NCBI GenBank assembly: GCA_019348135.1
Contig: JAHWJY010000003.1
Location: forward strand, 1-64,000
DNA: 64,000 nucleotides
DNA from: Actinomycetota bacterium
GTDB taxonomy: Bacteria > Actinomycetota > Nitriliruptoria > Nitriliruptorales > Nitriliruptoraceae
Direction of reading: 5' to 3'
Shown here: piece by piece, positions 3,791 to 50,394 of the stretch
Layout of the letters: every line of letters starts with the position of its first letter
How positions within the stretch are numbered: the stretch's first letter is position 1
Made by a program: the position numbers and the translations under genes
Notes under the pieces: model-generated
The model's database searches: none
What the model was told of the DNA's origin: nothing
Seen by the model: the letters and a program-made list of their open reading frames with translations, nothing else

Positions 3791-3822
3791 CGTAGGGCCC
3801 GCCGTTGACGGCGGGCCCTACG
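3791..3822 (+). terminator. Perfect 14-bp hairpin, likely transcription terminator
   Basis: CGTAGGGCCCGCCG-TTGA-CGGCGGGCCCTACG followed by CTTTCC, between two same-strand secreted-protein genes. Confidence 0.75.
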
Positions 3823-9929: not shown

Positions 9930-11777
<1,848 letters not shown>

Positions 11778-11781
11778 CACC

Positions 11782-11854
11782 GCGGGGGATGCAGGCCATC
11801 CCTGCGCGGCTCCGAACCCACAGTCGCCGCTACGGGACGACCTGCATCCCCCGC
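11782..11854. repeat. Structured inverted-repeat element, copy 1
   Basis: Perfect 14-bp terminal IR GCGGGGGATGCAGG/CCTGCATCCCCCGC enclosing core CTCCGAACCCACAGTCGCCGCTACGGGAC, shared (28/29 nt) with copy 2. Confidence 0.75.
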
Positions 11855-11942
11855 TACCGATAGGCCTCCTCCTCCTCCTCGAGGGGGAGGGAGGGTGAAG
11901 AGAAGGAAGACCGGAACACGTACCTGGAAGGGGGTACTGCTG

Positions 11943-12401
11943 ATGAACGAGATGGCCATGAAGACGAACCGGTGGGATCCCGTGCGGGACGTCTCCGGGT
12001 TGCAGGACGAGGTGGAGCGGATGTTCCGCCAGGCGTTCGGGACCCGCGGCGACGGACCTGCGTCGGCCGGGGCGTGGAGCCCCGCGCTGGACGTCGAGGA
12101 GACCGAGGACACCTTCGTCCTCCACGTCGAGCTGCCCGGCGTCAAGGCCGACGACGTCGACGTCTCGCTCGAGGCCGACGTGCTCACCATCTCGGGAGAG
12201 CGGTCCTTCTACGACGAGAGGGGCAGCGACGGCTTCCGACGCATCGAACGCCGATTCGGCCGCTTCCACCGGGCCGTCCGGCTGCCCGACCGCGTCGCGG
12301 TCGACGGGGTCGAGGCCGCCTACCGCGATGGACTCCTGACCATCACGGTCCCGAAGGCCGAGGAGGCGAAGCCGCGTCGCATCCCCGTGCGGGCTTCGTG
12401 A
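11943..12401 (+). CDS. Hsp20/alpha-crystallin family small heat shock protein
   Basis: WDPVRDVSGLQDEVERMFRQAFG...SPALDVEETEDTFVLHVELPGVKADDVDVSLEADVLTISGER. Confidence 0.95.
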   Translation: MNEMAMKTNRWDPVRDVSGLQDEVERMFRQAFGTRGDGPASAGAWSPALDVEETEDTFVLHVELPGVKADDVDVSLEADVLTISGERSFYDERGSDGFRRIERRFGRFHRAVRLPDRVAVDGVEAAYRDGLLTITVPKAEEAKPRRIPVRAS

Positions 12402-12413
12402 GCTGTTCCACCC

Positions 12414-12497
12414 GCCGGCGGGAGGGGTCGGGATGTCCCTGCGGGGACTCCGAACCCACAGTCGCCCCTACGGGACACCCCTCCCCCTCCCGCCGGC
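12414..12497. repeat. Structured inverted-repeat element, copy 2
   Basis: Perfect 14-bp terminal IR GCCGGCGGGAGGGG/CCCCTCCCGCCGGC enclosing core CTCCGAACCCACAGTCGCCCCTACGGGAC. Confidence 0.75.
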
Positions 12498-12555
12498 TGC
12501 CTCTCCCCTCCGCGGGGAGCGGGACGCGGTAGGTAGACCCGACAGAGAGAGTGTG

Positions 12556-13227
12556 ATGACTTCGGATAGTCCAGATCCCGTCCCCGAGGAGATGGTGGGG
12601 GCCGTGGAGGACGAGACCTCGGCCGACCCGACCGTCGACGTCCCGGACGAGGCGCTGGTGGGGGAGCCGGTGTCCACGGAGGGCGCGACCGACGTCGAGG
12701 ACGAGGGTGAGGAACCTGCGGAGGAGCCGGACTGGGCCGTTCTGGCGGAGGAGGATCCGCGGTCGCCGGGGGAGCTGCTCGCGGAGCTGACCGAGGCCGA
12801 GGCGCGACGCGACGAGTACCTCGAGGACGTCCGACGGGCCCGGGCCGAGTTCGAGAACTACCGCAAGCGGGTGATGCGCGAGGGCACGGCCCAGCGCGAG
12901 CAGGGTCGCGCCGACGTGGTCGCGCGGCTGCTCGACGTGCTCGACGATTTCGACCGCACGCTGCAGGCCGCCGGGCCCGGCGCCGAGGAGAGCTTCGTCA
13001 AGGGCGTCTCGCTCGTCCACGACAAGCTCGTCGCGACGCTCCGCGACCTCGGGCTGCAGCGGATCGACGAGGTCGGGGTCCCCTTCGACCCCAACCGCCA
13101 CGAGGCCGTCCAGCAGGTCGAGGCCGAGGAGACGACCGAAGAGCCCCGCGTCGCCCAGCTGTTCCGGCCCGGCTACGAGCTCGGGGGACGCGTCCTCCGG
13201 GCCGCGATGGTCGTCGTCGAACAGTGA
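12556..13227 (+). CDS. grpE: Nucleotide exchange factor GrpE
   Basis: YLEDVRRARAEFENYRKRVMREG...VARLLDVLDDFDRTL...GVPFDPNRHEAVQQVE; ATG at 12556. Confidence 0.95.
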   Translation: MTSDSPDPVPEEMVGAVEDETSADPTVDVPDEALVGEPVSTEGATDVEDEGEEPAEEPDWAVLAEEDPRSPGELLAELTEAEARRDEYLEDVRRARAEFENYRKRVMREGTAQREQGRADVVARLLDVLDDFDRTLQAAGPGAEESFVKGVSLVHDKLVATLRDLGLQRIDEVGVPFDPNRHEAVQQVEAEETTEEPRVAQLFRPGYELGGRVLRAAMVVVEQ

Positions 13228-48540: not shown

Positions 48541-48591
48541 CCGCCCTTTCCCCCCGTTCGCCCCTCCGGCACGGCACACTCGGGACCGTCC

Positions 48592-50394
48592 GTGGCAACG
48601 GACGGTCCCGAGGTGGCGGGTCGGAGGGGTGTCGTGCGTTCGGAGGCGTGGCACCCGCCGGACCCCACGCGCCTCGCGCGGATGGGCGGCATCGCCACGG
48701 TGCTGGTGCTGCCCGTGCTGGTGCTCGACGCCGCCTGGCACGACGTCGCGTTGACGGCCGGGCTCGTCGGCGCGCTCGCCGTCATCGCTCTGTCGGCGGC
48801 GCTGATCGTCACGGTGGTGGCGCTCCAGCGTCGGCGCTCGGTGAGCGACGGCATCGCGACGTCCACCTTCTACGTGTGGAACGCGCTGGCGATGACGGCC
48901 CTGACGGCCTTCGTGGTCGCGGTCGGGGGCGATCCCCGGCGGTACGGCATCCTGTACGGCCTCGTGATGGGGCTGGGCGCGGCGCTGTTCCCCGCCCGGG
49001 GGCAGCTGATCCTGCAGCCCGTCGCCATCGGGAGCTACGCCGTCGTGCTCCTCGCCTCCGATCTCGCGCCGTCCGAGGTCGGGGTCCAGCTCGCCCTCGT
49101 GGCGACGGTGTCGTGGATGCTGATCGAGGGCGCCATCCGGGCGCGGTCCTCCTGGCTGGCCGAGCAGGAGGCGCGCACGGCCGCCGACCGTCAGGCGGGT
49201 CTGGCCAGCGCCCTGACGCGCCTGACGACCCTCGATCCCGACGAGCTGATGGACCGCATCGCGGACGCGGTGGTCGGGCTCGGCTTCGAGCTCGCCACCA
49301 TCGCGGTCCTGCGTGACGGCTACCTCGTCCCGGCCCGCCACCGCGGGTTCGCACCCGGCGCCGAGCCCTACGGCATCCCGGCCGACCGGGGACTGGCCGG
49401 GCGCGCCATGAGCGAGCGGCGGACGATCACCGTGGGCGACTACCTCGACTTCGAGGGCCGGCTCCCGGGCCGCGACGGCGTCCGTGCGACCGTCGCGGTG
49501 CCGTTGACGCACGGCGACGATGTCGTGGGGGCGCTCATCGGGTCGCGGTCGGCGCCCGGGGGGCCCGACCCCCGCGAGGTCGAGGCGCTCGAGGTCCTCG
49601 CGACGCACGCCGGCCACGCGCTCGTCAACGCCCGTCGCTTCGAGTCCGAGCAGCGCGCCGTGGCGCGCCTGACGGAGCTCGAGGTGATGAAGTCCGACTT
49701 CGTCTCGAACGTCTCGCACGAGCTGCGGACCCCCCTGACGGTGATCCACGGCGTCGGCGAGACCCTCGCGGCGCACGGGGAGGCGCTCGGCGACGACCGC
49801 CGCCGCGACCTGCTCGCCCGCCTCAACGCCAACAGCGCGCGGCTGTCCGCCATGATCTCCACGCTGCTCGACTTCTCGCGGTTCGAGTCGGGCAACGCCG
49901 AGATCTCGCCGGCGCCGGTGCCGCTCCGGCACGTGCTCGAGGGGCTGATCGCCCGACTGGCCCCACTCCTCGAGCACCACGAGGTCACCACGGACGTGGC
50001 GGACGAGGCCGTGATCGTCGATCCCCGGTTGTTCGAGCACGTGGTCGAGAACCTGCTCAGCAACGCGCTGCGGCACACGCCGCCGGGGACGCGCGTGTGC
50101 CTCCGAGCGGTCCCCGAGGGTGGTGTCGCCCGCATCTCCGTGCGCGACGAGGGGCCGGGCATCGCGACCGAGGACCTCGCCCGGATCACGGAGCGCTTCT
50201 ACCGCGGCGGGCCGGCGGGCACGCGCCCCGCGGGCGGCGTGGGGCTCGGGCTCGCGCTGTGCGAGCAGATCCTCGCGGCCCACGGCACGTCCCTGACGGT
50301 GCGCTCCGAGGAGGGCGTCGGCACCGAGTTCAGCTTCGTGCTGCCGCTCGCCGTCCCGGCCCCCGTCCGGGGCGCGGGATCAGGTGTGGTCTGA
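48592..50394 (+). CDS. Orphan membrane sensor histidine kinase with GAF domain
   Basis: N-terminal TM segments; GAF-like ALTRLTTLDPDELMDRIADAVVGLGFELATIAVLRDG; FVSNVSHELRTPLTVIHGVGETL; HATPase. Confidence 0.92.
   Translation: MATDGPEVAGRRGVVRSEAWHPPDPTRLARMGGIATVLVLPVLVLDAAWHDVALTAGLVGALAVIALSAALIVTVVALQRRRSVSDGIATSTFYVWNALAMTALTAFVVAVGGDPRRYGILYGLVMGLGAALFPARGQLILQPVAIGSYAVVLLASDLAPSEVGVQLALVATVSWMLIEGAIRARSSWLAEQEARTAADRQAGLASALTRLTTLDPDELMDRIADAVVGLGFELATIAVLRDGYLVPARHRGFAPGAEPYGIPADRGLAGRAMSERRTITVGDYLDFEGRLPGRDGVRATVAVPLTHGDDVVGALIGSRSAPGGPDPREVEALEVLATHAGHALVNARRFESEQRAVARLTELEVMKSDFVSNVSHELRTPLTVIHGVGETLAAHGEALGDDRRRDLLARLNANSARLSAMISTLLDFSRFESGNAEISPAPVPLRHVLEGLIARLAPLLEHHEVTTDVADEAVIVDPRLFEHVVENLLSNALRHTPPGTRVCLRAVPEGGVARISVRDEGPGIATEDLARITERFYRGGPAGTRPAGGVGLGLALCEQILAAHGTSLTVRSEEGVGTEFSFVLPLAVPAPVRGAGSGVV

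Follow-up and report, generated by a model that had tools for sequence, protein, structure and literature searches.

A dispersed, often GTAG-tagged hairpin element flanks hsp20 in the dnaK operon of an actinobacterium and recurs at gene ends across its class

The window analysed here, a stretch of 64,000 nucleotides from an Actinomycetota bacterium of the class Nitriliruptoria (GenBank assembly GCA_019348135.1, contig JAHWJY010000003.1, positions 1 to 64,000), carries dnaK, hsp20 and grpE on the same strand, and each of the two gaps between them contains a hairpin element (Table 1). A first-pass annotation, made from the sequence alone, had placed the two elements there and given them 14-bp arms that are unlike between the copies. 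Both their location and their lengths were confirmed, as was the perfect 14-bp terminal inverted repeat in each (GCGGGGGATGCAGG and GCCGGCGGGAGGGG). The near-identity of a 29-nt stretch was likewise confirmed (28/29 identical between the copies), but the conserved core proved wider than that: it runs from GTCCCTGC to TACGGGAC and measures about 42 nt. In copy 1 the core reads ATCCCTGCG-stem-CTCCGAACCCACAGTCG-stem-CTACGGGAC, and its CTAC on the plus strand is GTAG on the minus strand. When the 3.17-Mb genome was searched with the core pattern, allowing up to 3 mismatches, exactly 2 matches were found, and a reversed control pattern gave 0. The site of copy 1 was also recovered by the covariance models described below (R1-R3).

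Table 1. Genes, hairpin elements and neighbouring features of the dnaK-hsp20-grpE region (window coordinates)
Feature	Position	Strand	Remarks
dnaK	9930-11777	+	Pfam HSP70, 1.6e-245
Element copy 1, dnaK-hsp20 gap	11782-11854 (73 bp)	+	P1 11782-11795 / 11841-11854; core 11798-11838
Core of copy 1	11798-11838 (41 nt)	+	
Second pyrimidine/purine hairpin before hsp20	11865-11895	+	fold z -1.27
hsp20	11943-12401	+	Pfam HSP20, 1.4e-22; operon position shared with relatives
Element copy 2, hsp20-grpE gap	12414-12497 (84 bp)	+	P1 12414-12427 / 12484-12497; core 12435-12476
Core of copy 2	12435-12476 (42 nt)	+	
Second hairpin before grpE, weak	12501-12524	+	fold z -1.22
grpE	12556-13227	+	Pfam GrpE, 2.2e-38

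RNA folding of copies 1 and 2 gave -49.4 and -62.6 kcal/mol (z = -6.23 and -6.18, respectively), and 0 of 200 shuffled sequences were equally stable. The 14-bp arms rank among the longest perfect inverted repeats in the window, where 12 such repeats with arms of at least 11 bp were found and shuffled sequence gave 1-8. Two other long perfect hairpins of the window, at 3791-3822 and 48579-48612, have arms of 14 and 15 bp and 4-nt loops; they lack the core and are terminator-like without a T-run. As for the second hairpin that had been noted behind each element, both do fold, but unremarkably so. The one before hsp20 is a feature separate from the element, because it is present in the sister genome G001, which does not carry element 1 at this site. 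Immediately 5' of the hsp20 ATG (11920-11943), the Shine-Dalgarno sequence lies within a small hairpin, GTACC-TGGAAGGG-GGTAC, and this stretch is identical in G001 despite the diverged remainder of the gap.

The bracketing of a single gene by two element copies had led to the proposal that hsp20 arrived as a cassette, inserted together with its flanking elements, as an optional latecomer to the operon. We compared synteny by tblastn of DnaK, GrpE and DnaJ against the loci around hsp20 relatives. The order dnaK-hsp20-grpE-dnaJ recurred throughout the family, in G035, which belongs to the other family of the order, and in the more distant G045, without the core; by this distribution, it is ancestral in the family and the order. 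The core is missing from both gaps in all relatives except G001, which has hsp20 in place and an element only in the hsp20-grpE gap. Since hsp20 occupies this place all through the family in the absence of the core, since G001 carries one of the two elements only, and since other element copies have no hsp20 nearby, the cassette origin is refuted by synteny, and we give it practically no credence. Most relatives have strong GC-rich hairpins in both gaps, unrelated in sequence and devoid of the core. Thus, the position of a hairpin in these gaps is old and the core is a lineage feature, which also fits a role of hairpins behind stop codons. In G012 and G007 (L024 and L040), long repeat/hairpin units stand in tandem between dnaK and hsp20, which suggests a rapid turnover of hairpins at this site.

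The search for further copies used a covariance model built from five cores (R1), followed by models R2 and R3 and two sequence patterns, and copies were accepted on the presence of the flanking stem. It yielded 16 copies, distributed over 9 genomes of the window's class; the core is thus not unique to the two sites at which it was first noticed, and it recurs in relatives. Four copies are in the window's own genome (G000, 72% complete), 3 in G001, and 1-2 in each of the others. Besides the dnaK-hsp20 and hsp20-grpE gaps, G000 carries copies in the tuf-rpsJ gap (L013) and at the 3' end of an S9 peptidase gene (L014), the latter matching the core in its reverse complement (P about 1e-4 versus shuffles preserving the arms). 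The copies of G001 are in the hsp20-grpE and tuf-rpmG gaps and in a convergent gap between tRNA-Glu and a dapE-like gene. Both tuf gaps are occupied in G012, the tuf-rpsJ and tetR-mraZ gaps in G033, and the tuf-rpsJ gap in G035. Single copies lie behind a PilZ gene (G028), immediately behind a crtI-like gene (G040), behind mtnA (G045) and, antisense, within dnaX (G046). In G040, a serine-resolvase gene in an IS607-like layout and then a long ORF without a Pfam match follow directly behind the element, between the crtI-like and crtB-like genes (L126:3600-5835).

The exact g1 core was confined to the window's genus. The second loop pattern matched 6 of 397 Actinomycetota, of which 5 belong to the window's class and 1 is a Streptomyces-like match without the hairpin. 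Outside the class, the element was found neither among the 397 Actinomycetota nor in phages or Rfam. The phages searched gave no match; the exact core pattern had 0 viral matches, and the 4 viral matches to the second loop pattern were without the hairpin, so that a viral origin was rejected. A single 23-nt plasmid match, from Streptomyces, to the stem sequence was judged to be chance. Lacking the flanking stem, matches in G053 (L003) and G005 and the repeats of G035 (C10) were set aside as chance or other repeats, as were model matches in G003, G059, G023, G038, G010, G047, G045 (C191), G028 (C3) and G000 (C61) and the Streptomyces match L115. The G035 contig C10 contains another dispersed repeat, CGTCGCCCCTGCGGGGCGTCGCTCACCGGTACACCTCC, in several closely spaced occurrences (L052/L054). 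Upstream of rpsJ, many family members share a conserved motif, GGGCATCTCACGGCC or a close form of it, e.g., GCATCTCACGG (L057, L059, L064, L084, L088, L089, L090, L092), possibly a leader or promoter element of the S10 operon.

All 16 copies follow one plan, which reads 5' to 3' as a locus-specific stem P1, CCUNCGG, an inner stem P3, a loop, P3', CCUNCGG and P1'. In nearly all copies the two UNC triplets lie opposite one another, forming a 3x3 internal loop (2x3 in G035 and G045). An alternative fold into two mini-hairpins with UNCG tetraloops suited copy 2 and, on hand inspection, failed for most other copies. The loop resembles CUCCGAACMCACAGUCG in the window's genus, has a recognisably related form in G035 and reads ACCCGCCCGCCCUCC in the g12 and f5 genomes. 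At its 3' foot, the inner stem carries CUAC (GTAG when the minus strand is read) in 11 of the 16 copies, CTCC (GGAG) in 4 and CTGC (GCAG) in 1. Read on the minus strand, the CUAC copies thus have GTAG directly before the palindrome. In the g1 copies, the inner stem and loop span about 30 nt with a bulged or mismatched fold, as in an imperfect palindrome of 20-40 bp; in the tuf copy of G033 the inner stem is poorly paired.

Fifteen of the 16 copies are intergenic, and 14 lie in sense orientation downstream of a gene end: 12 follow the stop codon of an upstream gene encoded on the same strand, and 2 more, also in sense, are in convergent gaps. The exceptions are the copies in the tetR-mraZ gap of G033 and inside dnaX of G046. 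A DNA-level element without a role in RNA would not, we infer, favour one orientation in this way. The suggestion that the elements target the dnaK operon mRNA holds insofar as they prefer sites behind stop codons, those of highly expressed operons included; being dispersed, they are not specific to this message. Strong hairpins just after stop codons, two of them in convergent gaps, could also be atypical terminators or attenuators without a U-run, with a shared core inherited from duplicated terminators, and in relatives these places are indeed taken by strong hairpins of a plain kind. We regard this explanation as improbable. The terminator scan called no intrinsic terminator at either window element, and the sequences 3' of the stems (TACCGATAGG and TGCCTCTCCCC) contain no T-run, so that neither of the window hairpins is an intrinsic terminator. 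Moreover, both window copies are located within a conserved operon, and a terminator has no need of a nearly invariant 42-nt tip.

The comparison of the orthologous hsp20-grpE copies of G000 and G001 revealed 3 paired events in P1 (A-T to G-C, G-C to T-A, and one inserted T-A pair) and 0 broken pairs. In the core of this pair, 1 of 42 positions has changed, and the remainder of the gap has diverged far more strongly. This single change together with the paired stem changes indicates that the core is constrained or recently spread, and that the stem is free in sequence as long as its pairing is held. Within the genus the cores are near-identical. The stem arms are not, when non-orthologous copies are compared: over the 15 nt beside the core, similarity is mostly at the random level (5.9 of 15 expected; 3-8 in most pairs), with a maximum of 10 in g1t/g1r and in one arm of g1h/L013. 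G001 lacks the element in its dnaK-hsp20 gap and at the 3' end of the S9 peptidase gene. The combination of a conserved tip with locus-specific stems could result either from insertion at the tips of existing palindromes, for which there is a precedent (PMC3733652), or from copying of the whole unit and later drift by paired changes. No site was found at which the same stem stands without the core.

The slow core at this ortholog pair and the compensatory stem changes, together with the strong sense bias and the recurrence behind tuf in three genera, including one of another family of the order, would also be expected of a cis-regulatory structured RNA, the loop or internal loop of which binds a trans-acting protein or small RNA and so co-regulates operons for abundant proteins (tuf, dnaK, hsp20), its copies having spread by duplication. 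We consider this possible, though it is not the reading we would choose: the loop is wholly different between lineages (the form of the window's genus versus ACCCGCCCGCCCUCC), copies are also found at tRNA, S9 peptidase, PilZ, mtnA and crtI gene ends and antisense within dnaX, and they are missing at orthologous sites. More speculative, and in our view rather doubtful, is a class-specific structured RNA whose UNC/UNC internal loop is symmetric and whose lineage-specific loop evolves slowly; a trans-acting factor recognising it would decide what happens to tuf and chaperone operon messages at their 3' ends, and the element would disperse in the genome via hairpin tips.

We lean, with modest confidence, towards the window elements being low-copy dispersed palindromes of the REP (repetitive extragenic palindrome) type, tagged with GTAG, that act as intercistronic RNA hairpins. 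A short imperfect palindrome with the tag would sit at the tip of a longer, perfect, locus-specific stem, and copies would settle mostly just behind stop codons, where transcription would turn each of them into a long hairpin in intercistronic mRNA. Most likely, the hairpin would serve as a cap that shields the message of the upstream gene (dnaK, hsp20 or tuf) from 3'-to-5' decay; alternatively, it may mark a point of processing or attenuation. As a consequence, the upstream genes of an operon would give more protein than the downstream ones. Judged from the sequences compared, the probable role of this small element, scattered over a handful of gene ends, is that of an RNA hairpin downstream of genes with high expression. 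The action as RNA, the stabilisation or processing of mRNA and the movement by a REP-type transposase (RAYT) are what we infer; no RAYT was noticed beside the element copies in the neighbourhoods viewed. The element works like a REP; its membership in the REPs is not established, because of its low copy number and imperfect GTAG tag.

If correct, this interpretation adds a deep and little-studied actinobacterial class to the known range of REP-like palindromes. The main text of the REP papers searched did not contain the term Actinobacteria, and a literature search on Nitriliruptor palindromes or dnaK intercistronic hairpins returned nothing useful. The case is unusual in that a conserved tip is carried on locus-specific perfect stems and that sister species differ in the presence of the element in the same operon. 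This presence/absence pair makes a standing question testable, namely whether such hairpins change how strongly the genes of one operon are expressed relative to each other, in this case dnaK : hsp20 : grpE.

Among known systems, MITEs with conserved terminal inverted repeats differ from the element, the outer arms of which are mostly at random-level similarity between non-orthologous copies. Like Rfam RNA families, it would form an RNA hairpin and shows compensatory changes; Rfam covariance models gave no family at the gathering score, and the best sub-threshold matches were miRNA models on both strands. Rickettsia palindromic elements (RPEs; PMC3733652) can enter coding regions, as the dnaX copy of G046 does, but their tag is CGTC, and the copies found here are mostly intergenic. 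With the REPINs/BIMEs of E. coli and Pseudomonas the element shares longer hairpins around REP palindromes in intergenic space; however, it does not consist of two inverted REPs and has one GTAG-type tag, with CUNC at the other foot. GTAG directly before the palindrome is the hallmark of GTAG-tagged REPs (PMC3733652; PMC8266576), which are mostly intergenic, downstream of and near gene 3' ends (Di Nocera et al. 2013, PMC3733652), with some copies intragenic in replication/repair genes and some families, such as A. variabilis GTAG-15 and T. roseum GTAG-23, inserted within palindromes (PMC3733652). Like these, the element is a short imperfect palindrome, in most copies with GTAG at one foot, and has lineage-specific stems and loops; it is mainly extragenic and downstream of genes, with one copy in the replication gene dnaX. 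Unlike the high-copy GTAG-REPs, it has 1-4 copies per genome, keeps GTAG in 11 of 16 copies, and has a long loop (10-15 nt) nested in locus-specific perfect stems.
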